NCBI GenBank assembly: GCA_033065855.1 | Contig: JAVXUO010002056.1 | Coordinates: 1-64,000, forward strand | Source: Escallonia rubra | Taxonomy: Eukaryota; Streptophyta; Magnoliopsida; Escalloniales; Escalloniaceae | Reading direction: 5' to 3' | Length of the DNA: 64,000 nt | Part shown: positions 2,426 through 60,745 of the stretch, piece by piece | Position numbering within the stretch: the first letter of the stretch is position 1 | Layout of the letters: every line of letters begins with the position of its first letter | Notes under the pieces: model-generated | Database searches by the model: none | What the model was told of the DNA's origin: nothing | The model's input: only the letters and a program-made list of their open reading frames with translations | Program-made: the position numbers and the translations under genes

Positions 2426-2573
2426 TCAAGGCAATGATTGATGACTTAAATCCGGTGATAAATCACTCTCCTAAACCTTAGAACTTCAAGACGAGACTTG
2501 GGCTCTTGTAACAATAGCCATTAGGTTCACCTTTTTTTTTTGGGTACATGAATAGGTTCACCTTTGTTGCTTT

Positions 2574-3435: not shown

Positions 3436-3484
<49 letters not shown>

Positions 3485-17337: not shown

Positions 17338-17760
17338 CACTACAAGAAACATGGCCTTTAGCGATCGCCGGTCGCGGTCGCTAAAGCTGAAATGGCGGTC
17401 GGTAATCATCTTTATGGACCGCAAATGGTAGTCGACCGCAGTTACTCCGCGGTCGCTCAATTTAGCAAGCACGTTGACCAAACTTAGCGACTGTCACTGC
17501 GGTCGCTAAATATTTTTGCAAATTAATTTAATTTTTTGTTTAGCGACCGCTTTGACCAATTTACCGATTGTAACGGCAGTCGCTAAATATTTTTGCCAAT
17601 AAATTTAATTTCTTTTTTAGCGACCGCTATGACCTATTAGAGACTGGAGAATGCGGTTGCTAAATGTTTTTGTATGCTTTATTTAGCGACCGCTTATACC
17701 TATGTAGCGACCCATTTTTAGGTTGTTAAATATGTGTTTTTGATATTCGAAAAACCTATA
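17338..17760 (+). mobile_element. CACTA-type terminus with subterminal repeats (copy B)
   Basis: CACTACAAGAAACATGGCC at 17338 starts the same subterminal array as at 7084 (TTTAGCGA, GCGGTCGCTAAA, GACCGCAGTTACTCCGCGGTCGC). Since the sequence on both sides is shared with copy A, this terminus was copied as part of the larger repeat and did not move independently. Confidence 0.6.
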
Positions 17761-18079
17761 TTCGGTAACAATACCTTGATAACCTGCTGTCACATATAGT
17801 TATATTATCAAATAATTAAAATAATTCATTCTAGATCTCATTTAACTAACAATCACGTCAAGGCGACAAATAAAAACGTTATGTCTCCATTAAATGTACA
17901 TTGTCTTGAACAAAAAATAGATAAAAGAGACAAATAGTTCACGAGCTAAGTAACTACAGTGGGACCAACCAAGAACATACTACTTTTCGGAGTCATCAAT
18001 GCTGTCATCATCCGCCGTCATCGTCATTTTCTTCGACCGTTTTTTAAGGCACGCGATATCTAATAATGTCGAGACTCAC

Positions 18080-18227
18080 CAACATTAAGCACAATACCGC
18101 TATGCATGAAGTCAAAAAGTTCCATCAATAAACAAAAACATAGACACCAGCATCAACATTAAGCACAATACCGCTATGCATGAAGTCAAAAAGTTCCATC
18201 AATAAACAAAAACATAGACACCAGCAT
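18080..18227. repeat. 74-bp perfect tandem duplication
   Basis: CAACATTAAGCACAATACCG...AGACACCAGCAT is present twice, head to tail (18080-18153, 18154-18227), and only once in copy A (7830-7900). It arose after copies A and B separated. Confidence 0.9.
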
Positions 18228-18429: not shown

Positions 18430-19990
18430 TAGGTTCACCTTTGTTGCTTTTTGCATGCCACCTTTATTCCTTTAACGACTTTCGACACTATGAAATACGG
18501 GTCAAAGAGACATATACCATTGGAACTATTATAACTGCAAAACAAATCTGATCAATATCAATATAATTATATAAACATATAAAAAAACAAGCTTATCTCT
18601 ATTTTGCGCCAAATATTATCTTTTCATTCCAAACTTTCTGATAAAGTTTTGCCTAAATTGAAATTTTCAAATTGAACTCTATCTAATTGTGTTATTTAAT
18701 TTTTCTAAGTACATTGTATTTTTTTCATAATTTTGAATATCTCTATGCTAAGTTTCATAAATTATTTGTTTTCATAATTTTAATAATTTCTATTTGGTTT
18801 TGCAGAAGTCATCTACTTTTGTTACATAATCATCTATTCTTATGCTATCAACATTCAAACAAATCAACTCTCACCTAAAATGCATCGCATATTTGAACGC
18901 TGTCTACTTTCTCCTTTTGTCCATGTTGGCACTTTTTAATTATTTACTTTTTTATTTTAGGCTCATGTTTTCATTATATCGTCAATACAATTTGAATTTG
19001 AAAATGTTATTAGCTAACAATCCTACAATTTAGCTATTTATTTCTGCGACTTTTGCATAATGTTTCCTATTTTTAAGGTTCTTTACATTTGAGGAATAAA
19101 ACGCTCTTGTGTGCAATACACGGGGTTAAGCTAGTTCAATAAAGGTCATGTTTCTCATAATGCTATTTAATCTTTTATTAGCTAACAATCCTACAATTTA
19201 GCTATTTATTTCTGCGACTTTTGCATAATGTTTCCTATTTTTAAGGTTCTTTACATTTGAGGAATAAAACGCTCTTGTGTGCAATACACGGGGTTAAGCT
19301 AGTTCAATATTAAAATGAGACTTAATGAAAGATTAAATAGCATTATGAGAAACATGACCTTTAGTGACGGTCGATCGCAGTAACTAAAGCTGAAATGGCG
19401 GTCGATAATCATCTTTACCAATCGCAAATGGCGGTCGCAAATCTGATCGTTAGAGGCAAGGTCACTTATTGTTAGCGACCGCAGTTACTCCGCGGTCGCC
19501 CAGTTTAGTTTCCGCATTGACCAAACTTAGCGACTACCGCTACGGTTGCTACATATTTTTGTAAATTAATTTAATTTTTTAGTTAGCGACTGCTTTGACC
19601 AATTTACCTACTGTAACGGCGGTCGTTAAATATTTTTGCCAATAAATTTAATTTCTTTTTAGCGATTGCTATCACCTATTAGCGACCGGAGAACACGGTC
19701 ACTAAATGTGTTTTGTATGCTTTATTTAATGACTGCTTATACCTATTTAGCGACCCATTTTACAATCGCTAAATCTGTGTTCTGGATTTTCGTAAAACAT
19801 GTATTTGGTAACAATACTGTGATAACCTGCTGCCCCTGATAGATATATTATCAAGTAATTAACACAATTCATTACAAAACTCATTTAACTAACAATGATG
19901 TCAACGTGACAAATAAAAATATTAAGCCTCCATTAAATACACATTGTCTTGAACCAAAAATAGATAAACGAGTCGAGTAGTTTTAATTTT
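18430..19990. repeat. Dispersed repeat, copy C (internally deleted and rearranged)
   Basis: It starts at GAATAGGTTCACCTTTGTTGC and follows copy A from GCATGCCACC to about 18980, then jumps to sequence equivalent to copy A ~7000 (CTCTTGTGTGCAATACACGG). The ~1.6 kb between is missing. A degenerate CACTA terminus (CATTATGAGAAACATGACC, 19341) and subterminal repeats to ~19790 follow. It preserves the empty site for the fold-back element of copy A. Confidence 0.7.
19007..19362. repeat. 134-bp direct repeat with a 34-bp inverted spacer
   Basis: A 134-bp segment occurs at 19007-19140 and 19175-19308, apparently identical. The 34-bp spacer (19141-19174, AAAGGTCATGTTTCTCATAA...) is the exact reverse complement of 19329-19362 just downstream. 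A direct duplication joined through a short inverted segment is the signature of replication template switching. Confidence 0.92.
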
Positions 19991-22713: not shown

Positions 22714-23119
22714 ATGGCACCAAAGGCTGACACGAAACTTGCTACGACGAGAAGAAGTCGCCGCTCAAGGAGGAGAAAAAGTTTCCAAAATAAGTGGCCC
22801 CACCGCCGTCGCCGGTGGTGGCGACAAGAAAGAGAAAAATGCGAAGAAGAGTATTGAGACGTACAAGATCTACTTGTTCAAGATTCTGAAGTAGGTACAT
22901 CAGGACATCGGGATTTTGAGCAAGGCCATGCGGATTGTGAACAACTTCATTAACGACTTCTTCAAGAAGCTTACGCAGAAGTTGGCGCGGTACAAAAAGA
23001 ATCTGACGATCACGTTGTGCAAGATACAGACAGTGGTGAGGCTCGTGTTGCCTGGGGAGCTGGCGAAGCCCGTAGTGTCAGAGGGAACTAAGGCGGTCAT
23101 GAAGCTTACAAGCTCTTGA
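22714..23119 (+). pseudogene. Histone H2B pseudogene
   Basis: The ATG at 22714 opens MAPKA-like sequence. A Lys-rich tail region follows, then recognisable H2B blocks in shifting frames: KKSIETYKIYLFKILK, a TAG stop (K-stop-VH, near 22890), [50 protein letters not shown] and KLTSS with a normal stop at 23117-23119. Frameshifts in the N-terminal tail and the internal stop mean no histone can be made. The parent was an intronless histone gene, since a hexamer and TATA box occur upstream, so it is a duplicated rather than retroposed copy. H2B would pair with H2A in the nucleosome. Confidence 0.93.
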
Positions 23120-28960: not shown

Positions 28961-30518
28961 ACTGGGTGAGACCAGGAGACGTTGAAGTTTTAAAATGGCA
29001 GGAGAAGCAGTTAGCTAATGAAGTAAGGAAAATCTTTTTTCGAGAAGTTAAAATGAGCAAGGGGAATCTATTTCCATGATATTCATATCAGATGGTCTTT
29101 TAGTGCCAAGTAGTTGTTCATATAAATTTCCACATTCAACTGACATTGCATATTACGGAGTATTTACTAGTTAAATTGGTCAGAAGTTGGAAAATCACAC
29201 CTTCCCAATTAGAGGACTTCGCGAATCCTGGAGGAGGACTACTGAGGGAAAGATGACTGAGGAAGTACAATCCTGGGCGCAATTGATATCCTGATAGATC
29301 TCCACCAATGGTGTGATAAGTAAAGTTATTATCGTGCTCGTCAGTTTCATTCTCCAGTTCGTCCTCACCTCCTCTTCCTTTCTGGTACACAAAGTTGAAG
29401 CCACACTCCTTTAAACAAAAAGGATCGAAGAACTCAAAGGAAATGGTAACTAGATCCCCACTTTCCAATTGATTTCCAAACTTCCACTGGCTTAACCATG
29501 CCCAATCTTCCCCATCCTCATGATATTCAAAGTATGTAGAGTCGTATATCCACGTAAGATCCTTGGTCTTATTCGCAATCTCGAAATAACGATTTGTTTT
29601 CTGAAGGGAACCAGCATATACACAACAGATGTTCAAGCATCGGATTGTGAAATTCGGAAGTGAAGGCACAGTGAAGGATATTGATGATCCGTTGGTCTTT
29701 TCACTGAACCATCCTGGCATCACCTCTCTTGAGGGGACAAATGTGCTAAATATACCGAACTCATGAAATCCCTGTGCCACAGAAATTGTAATGTCGATAT
29801 ACGCCAAAACAAAGATGCAACAAATATTGAGTCCTAATACTAACTACCAGTAAATTTCTCTGTTGCCGACGCGCACGTGCTAAACGTGATTCATGAAATC
29901 CCTATGCCAGGAAGATTAATATCAACTAACACATGAGACATAGACGGAGGGTAAGGAAGAGCGTACCTGAATGGGTAACTTCAATGCATCCCTCACTAGA
30001 CCATGACAATAATCCACCTTTATATTTTTCAGAGATTCTACGTCACACAATCCTAAATTGTTGATTGTTTCCTTCTCAACTTCCCATATATTTTCTCTCT
30101 TGACATAACCCTCTATTTCAACCAGCTTTTTACAATCCCATACTACTAGAGAATAAATACTATGCTGAGGTGGTAATTAATGATATTATTTCCAGTGATG
30201 TATTGTTCGGCGCATATAACGTGTCTAAAGCATTAGGCAGACCTTCAATGGATTGGAGCTTTGTACATTCTTCTAAACCAAGATGTTTAAGCCTATTTAA
30301 GCTTCTGATGCAATCCGGTAGGCTACATATAAGATTATGGCCTAAATCTAATTCCCTCAATGAGGACAGGTCGCCAAAACTGTTGGGGAAAGAATCATCA
30401 GATAAGTTACAGTTCTGCAAACTTAAATCCACTAAGGAGCTTGGTAAAGTAACCAAAATGTTTCGTACACTTCTCTCGGGCTTTGGCTGAAAAAGTTGCG
30501 CCATGATTTCAAGGAAAG

Positions 30519-30923
30519 TGATATATCTCAAATATACTCCCAATAATTGGGGAATACCGGCACTCTCAGTCATACTAGGACATTGGAGATTATCTTATCA
30601 AGACTCTATCATCAGAGATAGACACGTGATTCTCTAGAATCCTAATACAATCCTAATTGGATTTGTTCACATTCAAGTCCTACTAGGGCTCTTCTTCCTA
30701 CCATTATATAAAGGGGTCTACCCCCCAGGTAAAAGGGACGACTACACAACTACACACATTCATGCTTTTTTAGAGTCATTATCATGTAGCTGCGCTCTGA
30801 CTTAAGCATCGGAGAGTTCTCCGCCGGGAACCCCACCCGGCGGTCACTCGTTTTCTGTCTTGCAGGTCATCGGTCCAGGCTCGGGTTCCGCAACGTACGC
30901 GGGACATATTTTAAGCAGCAACA
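30519..30923 (+). repeat. 5' LTR
   Basis: 405 bp, TG...CA ends, with a TATA box (TATATAAA, 30715-30722) and a C-rich downstream region. It differs from the 3' LTR at six positions by eye, all transitions. Confidence 0.93.
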
Positions 30924-33900
30924 TTTTGGCGCCATCCGTGGGACCCGCCAGCCTAGCCGATTGACCAAACCCAATCACGTCAAAGAAAAAATAAAATTAC
31001 TATGATCGTACAACTTGGAAACCACCGTCGACAGCCAACCGACGGCACCTCCACCGTGGGTCTCCAATCCCAACCTGGAGACTGTTTGAAGGTGGTCAAC
31101 AACAGAACCGTCAGCAGCACCTACACGGCAGGGCCATGCCTGCACAACCACAAACAAGGTTCAGACATCACCATCTCCGGCCGCCGCAAAGCTACTGGAG
31201 CAGCAAAGAGAACCAACAAATTGCCGCGAGCCACCGACGACAACGCAATAGGCAAAAGGAAAAGAAGCAGCAGTGGTAGCCCCGTCACAAGGTTCAACCC
31301 ATACGGGCCACCGCGTATGCTTCTGAACCACCAAGTCATCCGCCGCAAAAGGGCTGCCGTAAACGTCGTCTTTCTCCGGTCACCCTGTCACNGGACATTC
31401 ACCACCGACTGTCACCGTCGGCGGGTTCTTTCTCCGGACAGCACAATCACAACAACTCAACCACCCAAAAACAAAACAAAAAAGGGAAGAGAGATCGTCG
31501 CCGCTGTGCATCGGTGCCGCACCGTCGCGGCCTCACTGGGCCTTTCACCATGATCAGCAGTGGCGACGCCTCCAGGCGACTGCCACACCAGCCAAAATCA
31601 AGCCCATCCCGTACACACCGGCGCCTTCCTCCGAGATCTGTTTCACTGGCCTCTGCAGTGGCGCCGACTCCATCGGCCACCGGCATGGTGCTAACTGCTC
31701 CAACCGCCACCATCCGTCCATACAGGAGCTCGCTTGCCGTCACAGGCAACAATCCGCCGGTCAAACGCGGCGCCATGAGTCATGCCGGTCCAGTCAATGC
31801 CATCCTTACTCCAGATCTGCATCACCGCAGCCATGGGAGGTTGCCCTCACTGCAGCGCCGCCGTAAAATTTGGACGTCACCTCCAGATCTTCGCCATCGA
31901 GACGCGCACCACCGCGACGCCATCGGCCCTATCGCCACCATGAATAGCGGCAGCAACAATCGGTTCCTTCGTACCAAGGCTGAGACGAATCACTCCGTCA
32001 AGATCCTGCCCGTTGAGACGACGGCAAGCATCGCCACCACCGTGACTAGCGGTCGACTCCATCGCCACTATCGCAAGCTCCGGCGAAGGGTCACCACCAC
32101 GATCAACGGCTCCAATCGGCGCCACCGTCGCCTCACGATTACGGCCTTACAACTATGCCGCCTACCCAACATAACCACCAGAGCACCACCATCGGTGGCA
32201 ACTGCATCAACCCGAATACAAAGCAAACGGCAAAAGAAGAAGTCACAACGCCGCCTTCGGATCACTGTTATCGTGATATGCACCACCGCGATGCCAGCGA
32301 ACCCGTCACCACGGGTCAAAACTCCGACTAATCACCGGTGTGCCTTGGCCTTGCAACCTTAGCGTTGCAAAAGGCACCACCGCCATGCCGTCGTCGCCTT
32401 TCTCAAACAGGCGCTACCCATCAGTCCATACCGCATCGCCTTCACAGCCACAAATAGGACATGTGCAATTGCCGCCGCCAGCATCAGGAGGTCCGATCAC
32501 CGTCACCGCCGTGGTAGGCCCATCGCCATATCGGTCGCCACCATCACCGCCGCGACCTACCCATGTACCCCGCGCAGTCCGAGATCACAAGCATCACCGA
32601 GCTACGTCGCGGCACCGGCCTCCTCCTTCGAGATGCGCGCCACCGCGACCAGCAGCAAGGCGGCGCCATCACCACCGCGATGAGCTTGCCCCATCCCACC
32701 GGTACGATCGCCGTCATCGCAATGGGCAGATCTCGCCTTCTGTCCAAAAAAGAAAGGAGCAGACCGATTAAGCAGGTGCACTCTTTCCTTTTTTAAAGAA
32801 ATTATACAATCCCTCCGAAATTATGCATATATACTATTTTAGACCGCATGGTATTCACCATTTTGACATATGCCATATTTTTTAAAGTATTAGGCTTTTT
32901 GGAAAGATGATTATTTATATTAAAGACCCTACGGGTCTTATTTAATCGACATGGGCCATACGCTTTTAAAGGTTGAAAATTTACATGCAAATGCATATCT
33001 GTATTTTAGACCCAAAGGGTCTTACTTATTTAGCATACACCGTTAATTCTTTAAACATTAAGCTTTTTAGGGTGCATATTTAGATTGAGGACCCACGAGT
33101 CTCATTTAATTCATGTATGCCACGCATTCTTTAAAGTATGCGTGCATTTTATAATTTGTCACTAAAAAGAATTAAGTGACACGATTTTAGGCGTTAGCAA
33201 GTCTTTAGCTATGCGCTCGTATATTACCTAGACCTATGTTCTATTTTGGTCTAGCATTATTTACTTGCGCCAATTGACGCAAGCACATCACAAGTCGGGA
33301 CTTCCAACTGCTATGATGTTTTAAGCTCAAGCACATTGTCGTTTAACGGACAAAGTCCTAATAAGGCCACGGTGACTAAACACCGCTCTTAATTCTGTGT
33401 TAAAAATATATTTACATTTTCATATGCTTCAGAGGTTATTTTTTCAGTCACGTACTTTTATTTCTTGCAAGGGCTTTTACTGCGCTGATAAGCAAGGAAC
33501 AAACAAATTCACAGCCGGCCACGCACACGCCACCGGAGCCACCGGCGACGCAAAGTTGCTGGAAGATCGCGGTGGGCACCATAAGCCGCCGGCCACCGCA
33601 GTCCAGTTGCAGGAGCAAACAACATCTCAGCAAAAAATCAAAAAAAATTGCATCGGCGTCGGCGCTAGGCAACGCCATACGACCACCGTTGGTAACAAAT
33701 TGCGAGCGCCATTGCACCGCCCTCCAGTCAAGATTTATGCCGCCACAGCCCCAAGAGATTGGTTACCACTCCCAATCGTGCCGTCCACCACGGTCAGCGG
33801 CAACAACTCGTCACCGGTCAAACACTACAGTCACCACCGTGACTATCGGCAGCGCTATTAGCGTCATCGCCACCATCGTCGTCATCGCGTCACTGTCTCA

Positions 33901-35337
33901 CCGCTACCAGCTTCCAGATCTGCACCACCGCGGCCATGGGAAAAACATCGTCGCTTCATACCCGGAGGAGACCAACGATCGCCGCGAGTTTACTTCAGGT
34001 CGGCCGCTAACAAGCAACCACTATCGCCAACTGCAACTCCGGCGACACGCACCGTCCTAATCAGACCACACCGCCGGCGGCAAAAGAAAAAAATCAAAGT
34101 AGGAAGAACACTGCGAAGTAACCGATGCCACCAGTCACACAAACATCACCGCCGCTAAGCTGCCGGATCAGCCACACATCGGAAACAACAACCAAATCCG
34201 CAAAGACAAGTAGCGCCGCCAGCGCGCCACCACGCAACCACCTCTCTATTGCGCCACCTCAAGTTCGGTCAAAGAGAAAGTGGAGCAGACCCAATAAGGG
34301 TTTATACTGCACTCGTAAGCATCAACAATGACGTAAAACCACTTCACAAGCAAGGAACAAATTCACAGCACCCAGTGACTTAAAGGTCACGCCTAGGGTT
34401 TTTGCGGCAGTATCCTGCCGTCCCGACATTATATATCCGGTTATACAGTGACCGACTGTCAAAGGCCAAACATTCACACCAGCGCATGCTACCAATGCAA
34501 CTGGTGAATCAGAGCACTTTGCGCTCCATCCGCCCCCAAGGGCACATATGATGAGAACTCTGAGTTCCGTCAACCCTCCGAGGGTATTTACATGAGCTCC
34601 ATGCTCCATTCCCCCTCAAGGGCACTTATCAGAACTCTACGTTCCACTAGCCCTCTAGGGCGGTCACCCTCAAGGGCGGTCACCCTCAAGGGTGATAGGA
34701 TAGCACACAAGTGTTATCTGACACGGTCTAGCTATAGTTCTAGCCCGAGAAACGGCAAAACCACATGGGAGTTCGTCGCCCTACCCTGTTTTATTAATTC
34801 GACACCTGGCCGAGCGTGAGTGCGAGGCTTCTTTGCCAGCCCTTAGCTGACGATAAGGGTTCGCGTCAAAGTAAAACGCAAGCATGATGTGGTCAGCTCA
34901 AGCTAAAGAACACACACTTGCACAAAATAAACACCCTCCACATGAGAGGTGACCCCTCAAGGGGACATTCAAACACTTAGCACATGCAACAACTTGCATG
35001 CACAGCTCTGTGTCCTCTCTCTAGAGAGGCTAACGTGGGGCACATCCTTTAATGGATCCCGAGATCCACTTATTCATCTTCCCAAAGATGATTCCGAATA
35101 GCCTACTTAGGCGGCATTCGAAAGACCTAGCTCTCAAGAGCTAGAGTTCTAGCATCCTACTCGGGCAAAGTTCCAAGGCTTAAGCTCCCAAGAGCTTAGG
35201 TCCGAGTACATGGAGTAGAGAAATATTATTACCCCTACAAGCGGATGGAGAATCCCTTACAAATCTAACGTGTGTCTCAAGACACCAGGTATAAACTTCC
35301 TCAGCCAAACATTTTGGCTAAGGAAGTGGGGGGCTTA

Positions 35338-35742
35338 TGATATATCTCAAATATACTCCCAATAATTGGGGAATACTGGCACTCTCAGTCATACTAGGAC
35401 ATTGGAGATTATCTTATCAAGACTCTATCATCAGAGATAGACACGTGATTCTCTAGAATCCTAATACAATCCTAATTGGATTTGTTCACATTCAAGTCCT
35501 ACTAGGGCTCTTCTTCCTACCATTATATAAAGGGGTCTACTCCCCAGGTAAAAGGGACGACTACACAACTATACACATTCATGCTTTTTCAGAGTCATTA
35601 TCATGTAGCTGCGCTCTGACTTAAGCATCGGAGAGTTCTCCGCCGGGAACCCCACCCGACGGTCACTCGTTTTCTGTCTTGCAGGTCATCGGTCCAGGCT
35701 CGGGTTTCGCAACGTACGCGGGACATATTTTAAGCAGCAACA
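35338..35742 (+). repeat. 3' LTR
   Basis: 405 bp. It matches the 5' LTR except at six transitions (for example AATACTGGC against AATACCGGC, CCCGACGG against CCCGGCGG). Preceded by the polypurine tract at 35320-35332. Confidence 0.93.
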
Positions 35743-36500
35743 GAAAGGTTATTAGCTCTAAGCACACTCAATGGCTTCATCTTTCCCAATTTCACCAGAA
35801 GATCAACCAGATTTGAGCAACCAGAGATGTTAAGTTCTTGAAGACAGTTTAGCAGACCAATGTTGCTTGGACGTTTTTTCAGACTTGTGCAATCTTCAAG
35901 ATCCAACAAATCAAGTCCCTTGAGGAATCCAATTGATTCACAAACTTCAAGCAAACCCACGCAACCTTTAAGGATCAATTTCTCAAGATTAGGAAGTCTT
36001 GAGAAGTTAAAGGTTCTTGCAAGCCTTTCAGAATGGCTGAGATCGAGTATCTTCAGAAATCCAAGGCACTAATAGCAAAAAAAGGAAATGAATAAAAAGA
36101 CCAGGATTTTTTAGGCAAAACATATGTAACAAATCACGAGACTTAACATGGGAATGAGTAAACTTGAATATCATACCTTCGTTCCCTCCCAAAATTGTTT
36201 GAGTTTGCTATGACGCAAATCAAGTTTAACCAAATTCTCTAATGAAATGTCAATAGGGACATGTTTTAAAGGGAACCCATGCCAACACAACCATCTTAAT
36301 CTTATCGGGAAGTCCTCATAGTTCCCGGTGAGCTGTACATAGTTGAGTTGGAGTAGTTGTATATTCTTCATCCCGGCAAATGCATCAACATCCAAATAAC
36401 CTTCATTTGGAAGTTTTAATGAAACTTTTGTCATTTCCAAAGAGATTAAGCTAGAAAAGGGTCGTCTTAGTGACGCGCCATCATAGGCATTTCCCAAGAG

Positions 36501-37960
36501 TTTATAATTTTTATACATATTTCAAATCTATTACAAAAATTATGAGACTTTATTTTCAGCTAGAAATAATTATGGCTATTTATGGGTTTTTATTGCATTT
36601 AAAGAAATTATTTTAATTAAAAAATATTCAAAAAAATTAAAAATTCATATTTTGACTCTCTCTAATGTTTTAAGCTATAAAAGTGTTTTAGTGTAATTTA
36701 ATATAAATTTTGAAGGGTTGTTACACATTAAGGAGTGTATAGAATTTTCGGTTAGCTAGGTTGGTCGTGTGCGAGAACCGTTCTGAATTGTGTCATTCTG
36801 GGGTTAGAAGTGAGCGACGTTTTGGGTAGTTGATAATAGGATTTATAGCATAGTAGTGTAGATTATTTTTCTAATAAATGAATTTGCCAATTTGGGTTAA
36901 TTCAACGACTTTTGGATCGTGGTCAATTAGCATCGCTTAGCTTGGATCGAGGTAAGAATTTTCTCTCCGAACCCTACTTCATTGTTCTAAATTCAAATGT
37001 TTTATTATGAAATCTTTACAAAGTGCATTGAACTCTGATTTTATGATATGAAAATACTTTTGAACTACCCATAAAACCCTAGTTGAGCCTTATAGCGATT
37101 GTTGGAATTCCTGTATCATTCTCATCTTTTTATTTATTCGCTTATCATAAAGTATTTTCAACTGTAGTTTATTTCTTCTAAATGTTGACATGAGTTAGTA
37201 AACCTAGGAGTTATAAGGATGGTCTGTTAGTTGGGTTAAACTAGTACCTAGATGGACTAGTTAGTGTACATATGCATATGTAAATCGTATCGAGTACTGC
37301 CGGGGTAACTTTGTTATATTGTATTGTTCATGTTCAATGTTTCCTGTTTTTGTTTTATTGCACCCGAAATGTTTTTAAATGATTATTAATTAAAGGGAGT
37401 GAGTTGATACTCTTCCCTATTCTTCTATTGAATTGAAATGATGTGGTTTTCTTTGAAAACCCTTTTAAAATTTTCATCTGATTGTATAAAGAAAATCATT
37501 TGAATCTTTCTGTTTCTCTGTTTTAAAAGTTGTTACTTGGCTTAAATGTTAAATCGTCCGAGTCGTTTTGATTGTTTTTAAATCTTTGATCGACCTTACT
37601 GGGCTCTCGAAAGCTCACTCCCCTTAGACTTCCTTTCTGCATGTGATAGCCATCATTTGGGTGAGGTTGCCTGCACGGATTAGAGTCGAGCATAAGGAAG
37701 TGAATTTAAAGTTGTTAGTATTGATCATTAAGACCCCTGCGCGGGTAAACTTCTTTAGCTTGTTGGTTAGACTTAAATTGATTTGAGGATTTGAAATGAT
37801 TAGATGCTTTGACATAGGTTTTCATAGTTAGTTATTTGAAATCGAGGTTTTTATGCCCTTAAGTAGCGATTGTTTTAACGTTCCGGGAGTTCAGGGTGAT
37901 AACGCTTCGGAAAAGTCCGGGTGTTAAAGCTTCGAAATTTCGGGATATTAAAATTAGAAT
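36501..37960. other. Probable Ty3/gypsy LTR-like remnant
   Basis: The sequence has the feel of a plant gypsy LTR: AT-rich start, CTCCGAACCCTAC, a GGGCTCTCGAAAGCTCACTCCCCTTAGAC tract near 37601-37630 and TTCCGGGAGTTCAGGG / CGAAATTTCGGGATATT near 37880-37950. No duplicate LTR, target duplication or coding interior is visible. It abuts the truncated 5' end of TNL exon 3, so its arrival may have caused the truncation. Confidence 0.4.
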
Positions 37961-46369: not shown

Positions 46370-49300
46370 TCATTTACTAGTTAAATTGGTCAGAAGCTGG
46401 AAAGTCACACCTTCCCGATTAAAGGACTCCATGTGTCTCTCTATTGAGTGATCAGGGTATGGAATAACAGGACGAAGATGACTGAGGAAGTAAAGTCCTG
46501 GGCGCAATTGACATCCTGATAGATCTCCACCAATGGTGTGATAAGTAAAGTATCTATTATCGCGCTTGTTAGTTTCATTATCCAGTTCGTCCTCACGTCC
46601 TCTTCCTTCCGGGTACACAACGTTGTAGCCACACTCCTTCACAATAGTATCCGAAAAAACCTTAAAGTAAACGGTCACCACATCCCCACTTTCCAATTGA
46701 TTTCCAAACTTCCATTGGCTTAACCATGCCCAATCTTCCCCATCCTCCCCATATGCAGAGTATGTAGATTCGTACATCCACGTAAGATCCTTGGTCTTAT
46801 TCGTGATCTCGATAAAATAACTTGTTTCCAGAAGGAAATTAGCATATACACAACAGATATTCAAGCATCGGATTGTGAAATTCTCAAGTGAAGGCACAGT
46901 GAAGGATATTGATGGCCCTTTGGTCTTTTCACTGAACCATCCTGGCATCACCTCTCTTGAGGGGACAAATGTGCTAAATATACCGAACTCATGAAATCCC
47001 TGTGCCACAGAAATTGTAATGTCAATATACACCAACGAGAAATCTCAGGAGTGGAGACTCCTGATGAAAGCTTTGCCACCAAAACAAAGATGCAACAAAT
47101 ATTGGGTCCTAATAGTTACTATTACGTGCTAAACATGATTCATGAAATCCCTATGCCAGGAACACTAATATCAACCGACACGAGACATAGACAGAGGGCA
47201 AGAGAGAGCGTACCTGGATGGGTAACTTCCATCTTGCAGCCGATACACCATTATAATAATCCACCTCTATATTTTTCAGAGATTCTACGTCTCGCAATCC
47301 TAAGTTGTTGATTGTTTCCTTGTCAACTTCCCATATATCTTCTCTCTTGACATAACCCTCTACTTCAACCAGCTTTTTACAATCCCATACTACTAGATCA
47401 CGGATACTATGCCAAGGTGATAAAAATGATATTCTTTCCAGTGATGTATTGTTCGGCGCATATAACGTGTCTAAAGCATTAGGCAGACCTTCAATGGATT
47501 GGAGCCTTGTACATTCTTCTAACCAAAGATATTTAAGCCCATTTAAGCTTCTGATGCAATCTGGCAGGCTACGTATAGGATTATGGCCTAAATCTAACTT
47601 CGTCAATGAGGACAGGTTGCCAAAACTCTTGGGGAAAGAATCATCAGATAAGTTACAGTGTCGAAAACTTAAACTCACTATGGAGCTTGGTAAATAAACC
47701 AAAATGTTTTGTAAACTTCTCTCGGGCTTTGAAACCCACGACTGAAAAAAGGTGTGCCATGGTTTCACTTCCCCTGTGGGGATGGGTAATGATTTTAAGG
47801 AAAGCTTATTAGCTCGAAGCACGCTCAATGACTTCATCTTCCCCAATTCCACTGGAAAGTCATCTAGATTTGAGCAACCAGAGATGTCTAGTACTCGAAG
47901 ACAGTTTAGTAGACCAATTGGAAGTTTTTTCAGGCTCGTGCAATCTTCAAGATCTAATAAATCAAGTCCCTTGAGGAATCCAATTGATTCACAAACTTCA
48001 AGCAAACCCACGCAACCTTTAAGGATCAATTTCTCAAGATTAGGAAGTCTTGAGAAGTTAAAGGTTCTTGCAAGCCTTTGAGAATGGCTGAGATCGAGTG
48101 TCTTCAGAAATCCAAGGCACTAACAGCAAAAAAGGGAAATGAATAAAAAGACTAGGATTTTTTTAGGCAGAAACATATGTAACTAATCAATAAGTTTAAC
48201 ATGGAAATTTGTTAACTTGAATACGTACCTTGTTTTCCCGCCAAAATTGTTCGAGTTTGCTATGACGCAAATCAAGTTTAACCAAATTCTCCAGTGAAAT
48301 GTCAATAGGCACATGTTTTAAAGGGAATCCATGCCAACACAGCCATCTTAATTTTCTCGGGAAGTCCTTGTAGTTCCCAGTAAGCTTTACATAGTTGAGT
48401 TGGAGTAGTAGTATATTCTTCATCCTTACAAATGCAACAACATCCAAATCACCTTCATGGGGAAGTGTCAATGAAACTTTCGTCCTTTCCCAAGAGATTA
48501 AGCTAGAAAAGGGTCGTTTTAGTGACGCGCCATCATAGGCATTATCAACAGTGAAGGCTTCTCTATCGCTCTGCAACTTACTGACATCGAGGGTGAGGCC
48601 TTCGATCATTTCTGTTCCCTTATAAACAAAAAAAGAAGAGCAAAAATGAAAAACAAAAAATAAGCGATAGCATACTTGGAGAGGGTCGTAAAGTAAGAAG
48701 GACAGTTGAGAAGTGTACTTCTTACCAATTTTTCATTTAGTACGCAAAAGGAATCCTTATGACGCCATAGCCTACTGCGCCTCCCAGGCTCCTTCGGTGA
48801 TTCTTTGCGAACTATTTCTTTTCCCATCTCCTGGAGCAATTGATGCATCATCAGCTTGTTGCCATTCTCAACAGTTAAGAGACATCTATCAATGAGACTA
48901 TCAATTCCAACAGTTGGATGCAAACCACACTTTTCAAGTATCTTAACTGTGTCATCTTTTTCCTCTCCAATGAAGAAGCAAGCAATATGGAGGAATAGGT
49001 TTTTCTCATAGTCATCTTGCAAAGTATCATAACTTATTTCCAAGACTTTTTGGATGTCAGTACGTGGAACTTCTTCTAGTTTGCTCAAAGCATCTTCCCA
49101 TACATCTACGCTTTTACCTGATAAAGAAGAACCGAAAACTTGAAGAGCCAGGGGAAGCCCTTCACAACGCCTTACTAACCTTTCTGATTGCTCCACATAG
49201 CCGTCTATTGGGTGGTCTTGTCCAAAAGCATGCAAGCTAAAAAGCTTCGAGGATTCATCACAACTTAAACTTTTAACCCTATGCACCTCATGAGCTGCAT

Positions 49301-50729
49301 GAGCCCCAAGCAAGCCCTTTTTCCTAGTAGTTAAGATTATTTTACTTCCCGGATAAAACACTTGTGTTCCAAGTAGTGCGTCGAATTGGTCAAGCTTATC
49401 AATATCATCGAGAACGACAAGGACTCTCTTAGAACATATAGCCTGATTAATCTTGATTGAACCTTCATGAACATTGTATAGCCTTCCCTTTTCCCCCTTC
49501 AAAATATTTGAAAGAACGTGATTTTGTAGTTCAAGTATGCCATTAAATTGTTCTGCGTGCTGTTTAACGTTTGCAACAAAGCTACTGCTCTCAAATCTAT
49601 GAAAGTTTAAGTTGTAAGCAATTTGTGCAATGGTCGATTCCCCAACCCCACCCACTCCATAAATGACAAGAATGTTAGCATCAGCAGATTCGTCCTGTAA
49701 CCAAAGATGAATGTTTTGGACTCGAAAATCCTTTCCAACTAGATAGTGGGTAACACTCAAGACTGTGCGATTTAGCTTCTCTTCTACAACACGAACAATT
49801 ATTTGGATAAACCTTGACTCGTGCCTGGAAAAAGAACAAAGCATAAGTGAATGTAATCTTATCATTGCAAAATCAAAATCAGTTTTTTGCAAATTTTTAT
49901 TTAGATTATCCAATCACCACAACTTTTCCTATATCTCAACTATGATTTCATAGCCAGTTATTTAACTTTAAAGATTTCATAAGCTTGCTAAAATACTGGT
50001 TGCAGTTAACACTTAATGGCTAAAATGTGATTTATGATAAAATTGGTTCATGAAAATTGGACGCTCTTCATTCAAGGGGGTAAATTGAGGATCCTACCAT
50101 GTAATATGTCATGCAATGCTGCCGTAAATGGAAGACCACAAATATTTTCAAAAAGAAAAGTAATAAAGGATTTTTAAGGAACTTGCTTACCCATCGGCTT
50201 CATTTTGCAACTCCATCCCTGCCAAATCTGCAGCTCGTCTAAGTGGTACCCTCCACCCTTGCACTTTTTTCATCAATTCCTTTCCAGTTTCTGTATCACT
50301 TCCGGCGTTGATCAATTGTTCTTCATATCTAGAAAATGCGTCTGCCAAACTACCCCTTTGTTTCCTCACTTCAGATGGTTCCACATCGTAGAAGACAGGA
50401 AACGCCGTATGCCGAGAGGTATCTTTGCAGTCAAGAATCATCACAAGCTCGTCAAGGCACCACGTTGAAAACGCGTAGTGCTTTGAGAAGACTATTATGG
50501 CAATTTGTGACCCTTTGATTGCTTTATCCAATTCCCATTTAAGATTTCCTCCTCTCTCTATCTCATCGTTGTCTCTGAATACAGATAGTCCTGCTTGTAC
50601 CAAAGCTGTGTAAAGATGATCTGTGAAAGTCTTACGAGTGTCCTCGCCTCTAAAGCTCAAGAACACATGGTAACTGCATGGAGGAAGAGAGGTGGAACAT
50701 GAGGCTTCGTGGGCTCTAATGATAGCCAT
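46370..50729 (-). CDS. TIR-NBS-LRR (TNL) immune receptor gene, five exons, 1187 codons
   Basis: Predicted intracellular immune receptor. Exons on the minus strand: 50729-50191, 49824-48726, 48618-48229, 48119-47214, 46999-46370. All introns are GT-AG, phases agree, and no stop interrupts. Domains: TIR (residues ~20-150, VFLSFRGEDTRKTF, FRDNDEIERGG, WCLDEL with the NADase Glu at 94); NB-ARC (~190-500, Walker A-like GVGGVGESTIA, kinase-2 RVLVVLDDID, GSKIILTTR, CEGLPLALQVFG, CFFIGEE, MMHQLLQEMG); LRRs in exons 3-4 (FPRKLRWLCWHGFPL, LVKLDLRHSKL, LEKLILKGC); and a C-terminal post-LRR domain (GFHEFGIFSTFVPSREV). Walker A Lys is Glu at residue 242 (GAA, 49638-49640), and MHD is MHQ (Gln 508, CAA at 48840-48842). 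Family knowledge predicts impaired nucleotide binding; the protein may be inactive, a decoy or a sensor partner. The ORF is otherwise intact. Confidence 0.94.
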
Positions 50730-51527: not shown

Positions 51528-51674
51528 AAGCTTTGGCTGGTGCGGTTTAACAAGAAGCCAACGAACCATTAGAGCGATATACAGACGGCGGTGAGACTCG
51601 TGTTGCCCGGGGAGCTGGCCAAGCACACGGTGTCGGAGGGGACTAAAGTGGTCACGAAGTTTACTAGCTCTTAA
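51528..51674 (+). pseudogene. Histone H2B 3' fragment
   Basis: In one frame: RFNKKPTNH, a TAG stop, then [33 protein letters not shown] and TAA at 51672-51674. This is the C-terminal third of H2B (alpha-3 and alpha-C helices). The 5' two-thirds are absent, replaced by unrelated sequence. It is better preserved than the H2B pseudogene at 22714 but truncated, and not functional. Confidence 0.93.
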
Positions 51675-52584: not shown

Positions 52585-53489
52585 CACTACAAGAAAAACA
52601 GTTTTTTGCGACGGACTTTTAGTGACGGATTTAATTCCGTCACTAAAAGTGGCCTTTACCGACGGATTGTCCGTCACTAAAAGTCCGTCGCAAAAAACTG
52701 TCGGTAAAGGTTTTTTGCGACGGACTTTTAGTGACGGATTATTACCAACGGAAAATCCGTCGCTAAATGATATTTTTGAAATTTTCATTTTTGACAATAT
52801 TTTCTCTTGCCTGAAATTACATTAAAGATAGAAACCCTACTTTTTATCTTATTCTCCCCGCCGCTCTCTTTTTCCCATCTCCTCTCTCTCTGTAGATCTG
52901 TCTTTCTCTCACCCACACTCACCTCCATCATCTACCTTCGCCGCCCACCTCCGATGCCATCCCCAACCCGCTACCTCACTCCGACGCCACTGCCACCCAA
53001 CTCCCACACGGCCCAAACAACGCATCCATTGTGCCGCTGCCGCCCCTACCGCTGCTGCCCCCTGCCATGTCCACAGCCGTCGCTGTCTCCCCATGTCGTG
53101 TCCACTGCCGCCGCTGAGACTACGAACCCGCCATGCCCCTTTCCGATTGCTACTGCTGCTTCGACTACCTATTTGTATGTGATTTTGATGATTAAATTGC
53201 TTGTATTTTTCTGTCATATATTTCTATGTTGAATAATGTGATTCCACGTTCATTGATTTGCAAATAATGTGATTCCATGAGATCTTCTCTTTAATTGTGA
53301 CACTGAAAAGAAAACCCTAATTGTCTATTAAGTGTTCTGTTACATGTAGATTCATCCTGTAGTAACTATGAAAGGGAAGTTGATTGCTAATTAACTATGT
53401 GTAGATTTCCTAATTGTTACTTTTGGTGACAAAAACCTGCTCTTAAGTGTTAATTATAAATTATATTTTTGCTATTGCATGTCCGTGAG

Positions 53490-53900
53490 TGTATTGGGTG
53501 TACAAATGTGGAGATGTGTATGGATTGGTGTGTGTGAGTTGGTATGTGACAGTGAAGGGGTGTGCGTGTGTGTTATTTTAGTGCAGTAGTGTGGGTTTGT
53601 ACATGCCATGAGTGTGTGTGTGTGTGTGAATGAGTGTGTGTGTGTGTAAGGCTGCCAAAGGGGGTAGCTGGGTGAGTGTATGAGAGCTGTGTGCATGAAA
53701 GAAAAAAAAAGGATGTGCAAAGTGTGTGTGCGTGCATGGTGATGCTGCCAAGAGGCAGCCCATGTGTTGTTGGGTGCTCATATGTGTGTTGTGTAAATTG
53801 ATTGCACTAGTGTGTGTGAGTGTGTACATGGGTGTGCTGTGTGAGTGTGTACATGGGTGTGCTGTGAGAGTGTGTGTATGTGTAATGTTTGTGCGTGAGT
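53490..53900. repeat. TG-rich low-complexity tract
   Basis: Long runs of TGTG/GTGTGAGTG on the plus strand, with a repeated phrase GTGTGTACATGGGTGTGCTGTG at about 53820-53860. It is within the CACTA element and yields His/Thr-rich antisense frames that are not genes. Confidence 0.85.
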
Positions 53901-53994
53901 GAGTGGAACAAAAAAAAATGAAGAGAGGGAGAAAACCCACTGCCTCATAGCAGTAGTGTGGGTTTGTACCGTCCCCATTAATGCGCTGTTTTAG

Positions 53995-54082
53995 TTATGT
54001 CATGGGTATTGGTGAAGCAGAGGCCTTTTCTGAGAGGTTGAAGCGAGAACTTCAAGCTTTGGGAGCAGCAAATGTGCATGAG
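53995..54082 (+). pseudogene. Captured SEC3 (exocyst subunit) exon
   Basis: After an acceptor-like TGTTTTAG (53994), the frame reads [20 protein letters not shown] then ALGAANVH, followed by the donor-like GAG|GTAACC at 54082-54083. This is a conserved segment of plant SEC3, a subunit of the exocyst that tethers secretory vesicles at the plasma membrane. Only this exon and what look like its flanking intron sequences are present. Gly replaces the Glu usual in ALEAANV. The host gene is not in the window. The recognition is from family memory of the [14 protein letters not shown] segment; a protein search would confirm it. Confidence 0.82.
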
Positions 54083-54848
54083 GTAACCTTTTCTATTACA
54101 AGATGTTGTTCATGACCTGAGGACTATTTTCTATTACTTGTGGGGCTCGTGGTTTTTGTTGTCTTATATATCATAAATATTCTTCTTTTTCTTTTCTTTT
54201 TCCAGTTTGTGAGTTTTTCTTCATGAACATGTGCATCTTGTTGGAATGCATCTCATGGTCACCATGCCTTTCAATGCCAGCTATATGACTTGAAATAAAG
54301 CTTACTAGGGCTGAATTTCTTTTAGTTCAAAACAAAATTATGCTCTGCCTACGTATTTGGTTATTGTTTGTGCACATTGGTCAATCATATGCTGAGGTCT
54401 CGGAGTAATATAACAAGAATGAATGATAGAATTACTTCTGGAATGGATCGAGTGGGGACTGAAAATACAACATAAGAATTCAGAAAGAGCAAGCAAAAAT
54501 TAGAATGCCTCTATTCTTCACCCAGCAAAAGTTGTGTCCTCTTTCTCCTATTTTAATCTTCTCCTCTAGTCTGTGTCATTTGGTTAACAGAGGAGAAGAA
54601 TGTAGTGTACTACATACCTGGTTGACTTCTACCACATTTTTGCATAATGTAGTTTCTAATAAAGAGGTATCTCCATTGCACAATTTGCACAGCTTGCCGG
54701 ATAGCTGGGAACTTCAATCTACTTTGCACTGAAATTGGAATTGTTTTAGTGAGATGGATTTCATCATTTGATTTGAGAATTTGCATTGTTATGAATGAAG
54801 AATGTGATGATTCAAGAAAAAATTTCTAGTACTTTCTTGTTCTTCTAG

Positions 54849-55356
54849 ATGTTTATGAGAGGCTTATTCAAAGTGGAAAGAAACTCTGGTTAAGAAGTTG
54901 TTGGTGTTTTTGAACTTTGCTTACACGCTTCTAGTTCTGAACTACTCCTATGTTGGATCCATGGTTAGTCTCTGTGTATGTATGCTCGCGCGCACGCGTG
55001 TGTGCTTGCATGCTTGTGGGTCCTGTGGGCTTCCGTATGTGTTTGCTTGCCTATGTGTGCTCGCCAGCGTGTGTGCTTGCTGGCGTGTGTGCAAGATAAG
55101 TCTAATTCACACTTACACAGCCTAAAAGCGAAGGTGAAATTCTAATACTTCTTTTCATCCATCTCAGGTATTGAGCTTGCGTGAAACGCTTGCGGCATAC
55201 GGGAGTGTACATTACATCGGAACCATTATTCCCATAGTTTTGATCCTCCTCAGCCATGTGATTAAACCAGCAAAGCCCGGCTCTGTTCCTGACTTGAATG
55301 GGTTTTACGGTTTCTTTACTTGTACGCTGAGCATTTGGTTTATTTTTTTTTTTTAG
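54849..55356 (+). pseudogene. Captured C-terminal exons of a lysophospholipid acyltransferase (MBOAT/LPLAT1-like)
   Basis: From 54849, after TTCTTCTAG, one frame gives VYERLIQSGKKLW. After a junction near 54890 another frame gives KKLLVFLNFAYTLLVLNYSY then VGSM to 54963, followed by GTTAGT. A second exon starts after ATCTCAG at 55168 (VLSLRETLAAYGSVHYIGTI then IPIVLILLSHVIKPAKPG) and ends in unrelated residues at a TAG (55354-55356). These are the last parts of plant LPLAT1-type enzymes, ER membrane proteins that reacylate lysophospholipids. One intron (54964-55167) is retained. The exons between GKKLW and KKLLVF, including the catalytic His region, are deleted, so it cannot be an active enzyme. 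Confidence 0.85.
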
Positions 55357-56103
55357 TTTTAGTGAAACTTGTAATTTTATTATTGGGATTTGTAGATGTG
55401 ATCGCGTTTATATCATATTTTTGGTGAACGTGTAATTTTGGTAGTTAAAGTATGGAGTGTTAGTTGGTGGTATATATGATGATAAATCTTATTTGTGTTA
55501 CTTGAAATTTAGTAAAAGATGGATGCTAGTTTAGAGAATTAAATTATTGTCGGATTGGAAACAGGTTTAGGTTTTTAAAAAACAATATAAAATAAAATAA
55601 AAAGTTTTTTTCACTTTTTTTTAGCGACGAAATTCTGTTGTTTTAGTTTTCCAACAGACTAGTTAATTTTATAAAGACAAGTTTTTAGCGACATAAATTA
55701 GAATTCTGTCGCTAAAAGTCCTCCAGACTAGTAAATGTTTTTAGAGATAAACTTTTAGCGACGGAACAAATGTCGCTAAAGCTTTTTTCGACGGACTTTT
55801 AGCGACGGAATTTCCGTCGCTAAATGTTTTTTAAAACTTTTTCTTCAGAAATTCAGATTTTTTTTTAAAATATAGAAAATAGTTTTAGCGACGGAAATTT
55901 CCGTCGCTAAAAGTAAATAATTCCGTCGGTAAAGTAAAATTTTGCCGACGGACCACCAAATTCCGTCGCTAATCTTTTAGTGACGGGGTTTTCACCCACG
56001 GACTTTTAGCGACGGACTCTCCGTCGCTAAAAGTGTTTATCGACGGAATACCCACTTTTAGCGACGGAAAATTCCGTCGCTAAAAGTGTCTTTTCTTGTG
56101 GTG

Positions 56104-57655: not shown

Positions 57656-58890
57656 TAAGATAAAAGAGTCAAATTTGTGAGGTGAAATAAACCAGACTTA
57701 AACAATTGAAAGCAATGTTGCAAGTTTAGTTTGTTCAACTGGCTACAGCTTCTGTAAGGCGAGTGAGCTCTAACATTTTTTTCAGTTATGCTGAAAAATA
57801 AGGAAAATACTAGAATGACGCTGAGAATTCCCTGTTCATTTCCTGAGCAAGGTTCCATTACCTAGTGCGGACTAGATTACTAGAAGTACAAATATATTTC
57901 AAAGCGTTAATGATGAGAAAGAAAAAAAATAAAAAAGCTAAAGTAGTAAAGCCAAGAAATTTATGTTCATTACCAGAGCTACTTTGTTGCATGTTAGTAT
58001 CACTCAGGTAGATGCAGCGGACACGTTGGTATATAATGAAAAGAATAATTAGGAGAACTACAATATAAAAGGATGATGCAAGGAAGTGGATTCGTACTTA
58101 CGTGGAGGTGCCACAAAGGCTGCAGTCATTGTCAGCTTCCAAGTATGCAGAGTGAGAGACAGCAGGGACGGAGTAAGGCTGAGAGCAAGTCTTCCTAGAC
58201 AGGCCGTGAGGAATGGCAGTGCTGCGAAGGCAAGGCTAAGACGAACAGGGCCGGCAGTCGATAGTCCAAGTCAGGGTCTGAGTCGAGGTCCAATGTTACG
58301 ATCTTAAGCTATGTCCAATTTTATGTTTCTCTCTCTAGAATCCAAGAGCTCTCCAATTCTAGAGTGAGAAAGTGATTTTTGTGAGAATGAAGAAGAAGGC
58401 CCACTTGATTTCTAAAGTTCACTATTTATAGGAAACAATGTGCTTATGTCATAAAGTGCCACATGTCGTCCCCTGGGAGTGACACGTCACCAGGGGGTCC
58501 CAAAATACCGGTTCTCCGTTGGACTGCCAATTCCCAAATTCGCGTTGCCTGCCTCGCACAGCGTCGCTCTACCTGTCTGAGAAGACTGACCATACCATGA
58601 CGGCATGATCAGAGTAAACCCGTTGCCCCAGCCACCAATCCAAGCCCTTACTGAATCCCATGAGGTGCGTCAAGAGACGCGCAGATAACCTGACAGTGGT
58701 GAGGGTTACCCCTGTAGCCAACTGCTAGGCGGACTAGGCGCGATGCCCTCCAAGGACCTGCTCCCGTCCCGGAGTGACCCGGGGGTCATTGCCCTGGTGG
58801 TGTCGAAGATCGACAGTAACATGAGCGGACATGGTCGCAGCTCAGTGCTCCGAGTCTGTGGCGAGGGGTCCTTGTGTCGGAGCCCCCTGT
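57656..58890. other. Spacer with a possible minus-strand promoter
   Basis: 57815-57870 repeats part of the 27150-27195 and 63255-63310 blocks (GACGCTGAGAATT...TGTTCATT). From 58080 GC content rises. On the minus strand CCTATAAATAGTG (58427-58439) is a good TATA box with a C/T-rich leader downstream. No ORF with a known domain follows, so this may be an LTR or element promoter. Confidence 0.4.
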
Positions 58891-58896
58891 GACTGT

Positions 58897-59318
58897 GACG
58901 GCGATGGCTATGAGGTTGTGAGCCCATCCCGGTACGAGGCCGAAGCCCCCTTGTGATTGAGACGGCGATGGCTATAAGGTTGTGAGCCCATCCCGGTACG
59001 AGGCCGAAGCCCTCCTTTTGATTGAGACGGCGATGGCTATAAGGTTGTGAGCCCATCCCGGTACGAGGCCGAAGCCCCCCTTTTGATTGAGACGGCGATG
59101 GCTATAAGGTTGTGAGCTCATCCCGGTACGAGGCCGAAGCCCCCTTGTGATTGAGACGGCGATGGCTATAAGGTTGTGAGCCCATCCCGGTACGAGGCCG
59201 AAGCCCTTTTATGATTGAGACGGCGATGGCTATAAGGTTGTGAGCCCATCCCGGTACGAGGCCGAAGCCCCTTTGTGATTGAGACGGCGATGGCTATAAG
59301 GTTGTGAGCCCATCCCGG
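58897..59318. repeat. Tandem array 1: seven units of 63-65 bp
   Basis: The phrase GACGGCGATGGCTAT starts at 58899, 58961, 59026, 59091, 59154, 59218 and 59283. Each unit also carries GGTTGTGAGCCCATCCCGGT and ACGAGGCCGAAGCCC. Units differ by a few bases. Antisense frames repeat a Gly-rich peptide but resemble no protein. Confidence 0.95.
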
Positions 59319-59399
59319 TAGTATGCAACATGATTGTGGCGCATGAGCGCGGTGCCTATAGCACGAGACAATACCTGGTGCCTGGGGCACGTGTTGTGA

Positions 59400-59824
59400 A
59401 AGTGGTGCGGCGACGAACGTCGCGGAGCAATATTTGGTGCCGGGGCACATATGATGAGACTGGCGCACGGGCGCGGCGACAAACGTCGCGGAGCAATACT
59501 TGGTGTCGGGGCATGTATCATGAGAATGCACGTAGGCACGGCGACGATCGTCGCAGAGACAATTGTCGCGGAGACAATACTTGGTGTCGGGGCACGTATC
59601 ATGAGAATGCACGCAGGCGCGGCGACGAATGTCGCGGAGCAATAGTTGGTGCCGTGGGCACGTATCATGACGATGGCGCAAGGGCGCGGCGACGAACGTC
59701 GCGGAGCAACAGTTGGTGCCGTGGGCACGTATCATGACGATGGCGCAAGGGCGCGGCGACGAACGTCGCGGAGCAACAGTTGGTGCCGGGGGCACGTATC
59801 ATGACGATGGCGCAAGGGCGCGCA
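59400..59824. repeat. Tandem array 2: about six units of 65-81 bp
   Basis: The units contain GGCGCGGCGACGAACGTCGC, GGAGCAA(c/t)A(g/c)TTGGTG and GGCACGTATCATGA. Anchors (GTCGCGGAG or near variants) are near 59419, 59485, 59565, 59631, 59698 and 59766. The last two units are essentially identical; the longer one holds an extra AGACAATTGTCGCGG. Confidence 0.93.
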
Positions 59825-60008
59825 TCGGGTGTCCCGAAGACGAGATGTGAGCTGAGTGTGCCTGTCATAACAAGATAATGAATGCAACATATAGTAATGA
59901 CAAAGTTGGTAGTTATGGTATGCGGTCGTCGGCGACGGGTCATTCGGTGATAGTGCGCGACTTTGGGCGATGGGCATCGCGGGAGCGGTGTGCGGTCACA
60001 GACGACGG

Positions 60009-60230
60009 AGGTCACGAGGTTGATGCACGAACGGACGTCGCGAGGTTGATGCACGACGGACGTCGCGAGGTTGATGCAGGAACGGTCGCGAGGTTGATGC
60101 ACGACGGACGTCGCGAGGTTGATGCACGAACGGACGTCGCGAGGTTGATGCACGACGGACGTCGCGAGGTTGATGCACGAACGGACGTCGCGAGGTTGAT
60201 GCACGACGGACGTCGCGAGGTTAACGTACG
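60009..60230. repeat. Tandem array 3: about nine units of 23-26 bp
   Basis: GAGGTTGATGCACGA(ac)GGACGTCGC recurs at 60016, 60042, 60067, 60090, 60115, 60141, 60166, 60192 and 60217, mostly alternating 26- and 25-bp units. The open frames on both strands across it are repeat-encoded. Confidence 0.95.
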
Positions 60231-60329
60231 AACGTCCGTAAACATCACGGAGGTGCGAAGACTCGAGGACACAAGTGCGCGCGGGAGGGGAGACCATAGG
60301 CCGAACATTGGGGGAAGGCCAAGGCCATG

Positions 60330-60745
60330 ACCCCTGGGGAGGCCGAGGCCGACCCCTTGGGGAGGCCGAGGCCGACCCTAGGGAGTGGCCAAGGCCAATG
60401 GCCAACTCCCATGAAGGGAGGCCAAGGCCACTCCCCCTTTCCGTGAACTTCAGGCGCACCGACGGTAAGTGTTTTGATGAGCAATGGGAAATCCGAAAGT
60501 TGCGTTACGACGAGCATGTCGACGTGAATCGTACCCATGTGACGAACAAGGTGTTAAAGTCACGTACGAAGCAAAAAAAGTACGTAAAGGACTTTGCACA
60601 AAAAGTGAAGAACCGAGGGAGGAAGGCCAAGGCCAACCCCCATGGGAGGCCGAGGCCGACCCCATGGCCTTGGGGGAGGCCGAGGCCGACCCCATGGCCT
60701 TGGAGGAGGCCGAGGCCGACCCCATGGGGTTGGCCAAGGCCTTTG
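60330..60745. repeat. Tandem array 4: GGCCGAGGCCGACCCC units in two clusters
   Basis: GAGGCCGAGGCCGACCC occurs near 60339 and 60362, then at 60646, 60676 and 60706 with an exact 30-bp period in the second cluster. Between the clusters lie single copies of GGCCAAGGCCA-type palindromes. GC content is very high for this window. Confidence 0.92.

Follow-up and report, generated by a model that had tools for sequence, protein, structure and literature searches.

How do pieces of two unrelated host genes come to lie within a single transposable element? The question is raised by a 64,000-bp stretch of the Escallonia rubra genome (contig JAVXUO010002056.1, positions 1-64,000; referred to here as the window, and as C2475 in the genome searches), in which positions 52585-56103 hold a 3,519-bp non-autonomous CACTA element with pieces of SEC3 and of the MBOAT acyltransferase gene LPLAT1. 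The SEC3 cargo (53995-54309) consists of one exon and an intron piece, and the LPLAT1 cargo (about 54666-55277) of three exon pieces and introns on the same strand. The original prediction, made from the sequence letters of the window, held that the element had captured both genes. Fragments of both are present, but they were apparently not taken by this element itself from the chromosomal loci. Comparison with related elements makes it very likely (probability roughly 0.93) that the window element is a mosaic with parts from three CACTA families and that SEC3 and LPLAT1 were not captured side by side.

Relatives in the same genome carry the gene pieces singly or together. SEC3 alone is found in elements on C1374, C1942, and C2458, LPLAT alone in elements on C2015, C1411, and C3079, and the two are joined on C1789, on C1927, and in the window. 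The element on C1789 matches SEC3-type elements over its positions 1-1722 (C2458 90.6%, C1374 88.0%) and LPLAT-type elements over positions 1715-3692 (C2015, 96.9% and 92.2%), the two matches overlapping by the 8 bp TTACTAGG. This fusion junction between a SEC3-type and an LPLAT-type element lies at 54302-54309 (+) in the window and is common to C1789 and C1927. Beyond it, C1374, C1942, and C2458 keep the parent SEC3 intron, whereas C1789 and the window do not; as this intron sequence persists only in the single-carrier copies, the joined state is the derived one. A second switch is seen in the window element, of which positions 1-1411 match locus L020 (on C461) and positions 1409-3519 match C1789, with a 3-bp overlap, AGT, at 53993-53995 (+). 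It joins a left module (52585-53995, +), belonging to a CACTA family without SEC3 or LPLAT, to a C1789-type SEC3 segment. The left module is nearest to L020 (96% over 52895-53995) and reaches 98.7% to L017 over 52895-53670. Before the SEC3 exon, C1789 follows the parent intron, whereas the window does not: the parent intron ends in GTTTGCAG followed by TTATGTC, which C1789 matches, whereas the window has, like L020, GCTGTTTTAG before the TTATGTC position. The sequence upstream of the exon's AG is transposon sequence, with no SEC3 intron. The junction falls at the exon edge and leaves AG in place, this dinucleotide (53993-53994) lying inside the overlap common to both fusion partners.

A series of steps would account for this structure. 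One CACTA family would have come to carry a SEC3 piece and a second the 3' part of LPLAT1. Elements of the two types would then have fused at the 8-bp microhomology, a state that appears to be preserved on C1789, after which the left part may have been replaced by the left end of the third family across the 3-bp microhomology. The LPLAT part would also have lost 188 bp, and the product would have transposed to give at least two copies (window and C1927). The order of these events is deduced from shared junctions; the composition of the element, its junctions, the parent genes, the intermediates, the copies, and transposition as a unit are directly observed. Adjacent elements presumably became fused through aberrant excision or gap repair, as has been proposed for Pack-CACTA elements (PMC8903248, PMC13317346), and a CACTA transposase produced from another locus would have moved the element in trans.

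Copies of the element were sought from its left end. Genome matches to the left 816 bp comprise at least 111 pieces, from which 20 of the loci with the closest matches (L009-L028) were taken. Each aligns with all or part of the left module. SEC3 is present in one locus (L009), and no LPLAT was found in the stretches taken, L025 being cut by a contig end. Once neighbouring stretches are included, L009, on C1927, proves to be another full-length copy of the window element (97.5% over 52585-54570 and 98.8% over 54565-56103), split by a long terminal repeat (LTR) retrotransposon whose 2.03-kb LTRs are 99.6% identical. It is bordered by a perfect duplication (TGA/TGA), and the 200-bp flanks of the window element are unmatched there on both sides. 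This second full copy with unrelated flanks and its own duplication indicates that the whole assembly moves as a unit, and the presence of several copies of the same structure, transposed as a unit, is as expected of Pack-CACTA elements. Pattern matching placed both element ends in 14 of these 20 left-module loci, and 12 of the 14 show a perfect 3-bp duplication; perfect duplications also border the elements on C2015, C1411, and C1374.

Among the left-module loci, L020 is itself a mosaic, its left 1,319 bp being 98.3% alike to L018 (a member of a 3.7-kb family) and its right 1,244 bp 98.8% alike to L010, so that the window element is not alone in showing joins between carriers. L017, L018, L021-L024, and L026-L028 form a homogeneous 3.7-kb subfamily (96-98% to L017) with an interior of about 2 kb. 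L015 (on C1801) harbors about 1.3 kb of sequence, rich in low-complexity repeats of GGN/CCN type, that L016 and other relatives lack.

The parent genes were identified in the window's own genome (566 Mb), to which all parent and copy searches refer, with analyst-supplied Arabidopsis SEC3A and LPLAT1 queries, which Pfam reads as Sec3 and MBOAT, respectively. The SEC3A query gave 30 matches. Twenty-two of them lie on one strand of C1806 and are spread over amino acids 1-887, and the remaining eight are single pieces within amino acids 210-257 on C2475 (the window), C1927, C1789, C1374, C1942, C2458, C688, and C2153. A second short piece (amino acids 256-277) is held by C1374 and C2458, and an additional SEC3 match was obtained on C2502 at the DNA level. 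The LPLAT1 query gave 37 matches; amino acids 1-101, 113-192, and 192-330 are found on C2065 only, among the matches listed, and all other listed loci begin at amino acid 329 or later. LPLAT pieces occur on 16 further non-parent contigs. The genes on C1806 (SEC3) and C2065 (LPLAT1) are accordingly regarded as the parents, and DNA comparison with them confirms the cargo. Both the parents and the other copies were thus recovered by the genome search that had been suggested along with the original prediction, and the window element holds host-gene fragments between CACTA ends with the parents located elsewhere, as is typical of Pack-CACTA elements.

The SEC3A query matches the window at 53993-54085 (tblastn, 55.8 bits, E 2e-10; best of 200 shuffles 29.6). 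The exon fragment (53995-54082, +), recognized by tblastn and by parent DNA, keeps its donor GTAACC and is followed by an intron piece (54083-54309, +) that matches C1806 at the DNA level; exon and intron together are 79% alike to the parent over 347 columns, 33 of which are gaps. Near the 3' end of the exon, 30 bp of the parent exon are missing. In an alignment of five SEC3-bearing copies and the parent, this loss is common to the window, C1789, C1374, and C1942, and C2458 shows a different loss of 23 bp at the same place. The SEC3 exon with splice borders that had been predicted is thus borne out for its extent (53995-54082) and its donor, but its left border is a transposon junction and 30 bp of exon are absent. 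Searches of Pfam and PDB with the short SEC3 and LPLAT1 pieces alone gave no support, which is explained for SEC3 by a length of under 30 residues and for LPLAT by the captured sequence lying mostly beyond residue 413, where the MBOAT match in the LPLAT1 query stops.

For LPLAT1, the same type of search returned three co-linear blocks (best of 200 shuffles 30.8 bits): 55168-55278 with 56.2 bits, 54877-54966 with 40.0 bits, and 54851-54883 with 23.9 bits over 11 residues (E 0.6). The proposed translated search of the cargo hence exceeded shuffled sequence for both genes, and the two to three LPLAT1-like exons foreseen proved to be three co-linear blocks matching parent DNA, the first of which is not significant alone. 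Downstream of the SEC3/LPLAT junction, 54302-54665 (+) is sequence of the LPLAT-type elements that finds no counterpart in the examined stretch of the LPLAT1 gene (L038). It is followed, on the same strand, by an LPLAT1 intron piece (54666-54848; 92-95% to C2065), exon a (54849-54883; VYERLIQSGKK, acceptor TTCTTCTAG), a deletion junction (54884-54891) on either side of which the reading frames differ, exon b (54892-54963; LVKKLLVFLNFAYTLLVLNYSYVGSM), an intron (54964-55167), exon c (55168-55277; VLSLRETLAAYGSVHYIGTIIPIVLILLSHVIKPAKP), and a second deletion junction (55283-55284) common to C1789. Relative to C1789, C2015, and C1411, the window and C1927 lack 188 bp between exons a and b, which are therefore fused out of frame. 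A further 164 bp, present in C2015, C1411, and C3079, are missing after 55283 from the window, C1927, and C1789; in C2015 and C1411 they contain the terminal part of the LPLAT1 frame. The intron at 54964-55167 has GT and AG borders, and its 204-column alignment with the parent is ungapped and 95% identical, which shows that capture took place at the DNA level, as the original prediction had it.

The ends place the element among the CACTA (En/Spm) transposons. The left terminal inverted repeat CACTACAAGAAAA (52585-52597, +) and the right one CACCACAAGAAAA (56091-56103, -) were found by end pattern and differ by one change, and both termini and coordinates agree with what had been predicted, as do the dense subterminal repeats said to delimit the element. 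Sites of the CCGTCGCTAAA type number 64 in the whole window (with up to two mismatches) against 8.9 expected, and a stricter form of the motif occurs in four of 128 bins of 500 bp, three of which lie at the ends of the element. Both orientations are present, with ten sites on the left (52598-52777) and 19 on the right (55620-56087). The CGCTAAA form makes up one of the ten left and 13 of the 19 right sites (Fisher p 0.005, counted by hand on sites that are not independent). This difference was the first hint of a hybrid and was later accounted for by the three-family mosaic. The variant CACCA of the right end is flanked by perfect duplications on C2015 (ATA/ATA) and C1374 (AGA/AGA).

Several observations weigh against a mosaic that has been mobile as described. 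The 3 bp that flank the window copy itself differ (left TAT, right GTA) and so form no exact target-site duplication. A dead right end is ruled out as the cause, as the identical variant end has perfect duplications elsewhere. Exact duplications are also missing on C1789 (aaa/caa) and C2458 (aca/ata) and, with both ends located, at L019 and L021, and the left ends of the elements on C1942 and C3079 were not located. The loci were picked from best matches, the repeat counts are lower bounds, and the identity of both cargo genes rests on the analyst-supplied Arabidopsis sequences. In favour of the proposed account, of 27 open reading frames of at least 50 amino acids that overlap the element, 20 were scanned with Pfam and none holds a transposase domain, so that the element is classed as non-autonomous; the genome was not searched for transposase genes. 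Two weak matches in these frames, to Acyl-CoA_dh_C and DUF2961, remained below the Pfam cut-offs.

The cargo is most likely without protein function, given that the LPLAT frame is broken and its end removed and that only short pieces of both genes are present. RNA from the element, if it is transcribed, would be mostly non-coding and chimeric. The element has perfect 21-mers in common with the stretches of the parent genes, counted over exons and introns together (11 for SEC3, 145 for LPLAT1, none for the left module), so that cross-talk with the parents via small interfering RNA (siRNA) is possible. That the element actually serves as a source of siRNAs dampening SEC3 and LPLAT1 is nevertheless improbable: besides the shared 21-mers, it could draw on the inverted repeats within the subterminal parts and on the precedent of maize Helitrons, Pack-MULEs, and Sireviruses, reported in a review as reservoirs of donor-gene siRNAs (PMC13317346), but the LPLAT pieces on the 16 further contigs make the window copy in no way special. 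Even less credit is due to an origin by two independent captures, in which one element took SEC3 and LPLAT1 directly from the genes. The position of both pieces on one strand, together with introns, would agree with it, but each piece has its own element family, the joined forms switch family at short overlaps, and the SEC3-only copies retain parent intron that the joined forms lack. It is hardly credible that the cargo has been co-opted as a chimeric gene through splicing of the SEC3 exon to LPLAT1 exon c. In its favour, this join is in frame and gives 89 open residues counted from the first Met, an AG remains at the exon edge through the junction at 53993-53995, and exons in soybean Tgm-Express1 can be spliced (PMC1947982). 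Against it, exon a would have to be skipped (with SEC3 spliced to exon a, the frame beginning at the first Met closes after 41 residues), one junction in three would be in frame by chance, and the frame end after exon c is not that of LPLAT1. Retroposition of spliced RNA is excluded by the retained introns (the LPLAT1 intron and the SEC3 intron up to 54309), and a genuine SEC3 or LPLAT1 locus interrupted by transposon ends, an alternative raised with the original prediction, by the parents on C1806 and C2065.

The window element, a mosaic of three families, is of the Pack-CACTA type and belongs to a known kind, with unusually clear intermediates. Capture of gene fragments by CACTA elements is well known, with further cases in grapevine and Chenopodium (PMC2528002 and PMC8978399). 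Pack-CACTA or Pack-TYPE elements of Arabidopsis, rice, and maize are likewise non-autonomous, with termini more conserved than interiors; some hold DNA from two or more gene loci, and fusion with a neighbouring element is a proposed route of DNA gain (PMC8903248, PMC13317346). Here, in distinction, single-gene carriers and the fusion intermediate on C1789 share a genome with the final element. Tgm-Express1 of soybean is also a CACTA element with exon and intron pieces, of five genes there and two here (PMC1947982); it differs in lying inside a gene intron and in having its cargo shown to be spliced, whereas the window insertion is in no recognised gene. The Tpn1 family of morning glory is similar, with shared subterminal regions and varied captured gene fragments between them (as cited in PMC8195511). 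A literature search with CACTACAAGAAAA returned, among others, work on a radish CACTA element. Searches with the captured peptide strings gave no match, those for CACTA gene capture with SEC3/exocyst or LPLAT showed no CACTA transposon work among the 20 of 512 papers listed, and those for CACTA hybrids with microhomology matched transgene-insertion work only, none of which shows absence from print. Viral contigs yielded no relative, whether scanned with the subterminal repeat pattern or with the spliced LPLAT peptide, for which none of 32 pattern matches was confirmed.

Single-gene carriers, a fusion intermediate, and a three-part hybrid are thus found in one genome with readable junctions, a complete series that makes the order of steps testable, and finding two host genes within an element does not by itself imply that this element captured each of them. 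A broader and rather doubtful generalization would be that multi-gene Pack-CACTA elements grow as a rule via microhomology joins between single-gene carriers, trading gene pieces like modules between families, here with one join exactly at an exon edge, AG kept, and a potentially spliceable SEC3-LPLAT1 chimera.

Further CACTA-like ends with CGGTCGCTAAA repeats lie in the window at 7084-7484, 17338-17692, and 19360-19773, near which no right end was located by pattern. They are part of larger duplicated blocks (6408-7903 and 16665-18158, 85% alike; 19257-19982). A hAT-like transposase is encoded in two adjoining frames at 11778-14237 (-), with DUF4371 and Dimer_Tnp_hAT in the scanned frame 11778-13247. 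TIR-NBS-LRR resistance gene copies occupy 46370-50729 (-), 2048-2425, and 29136-36521 (-), the CACTA element lying about 1.9 kb from the copy edge at 50729. TIR, NB-ARC, Roq1-like winged helix, and LRR domains were recognized in three scanned reading frames of 47151-50729; the other copies were assigned by eye and from duplicated blocks. Between these genes and the element, a C-terminal histone H2B fragment (51537-51671, +) is 80% alike to an analyst-supplied H2B sequence over 45 amino acids and contains one stop; Pfam gave no match for 51579-51671. A longer H2B copy at 22754-23116 also has a stop as well as gaps. Downstream of the element, a minisatellite cluster extends over 58881-60727, with units of 64, 67, 81, 25, and 30 bp among others.

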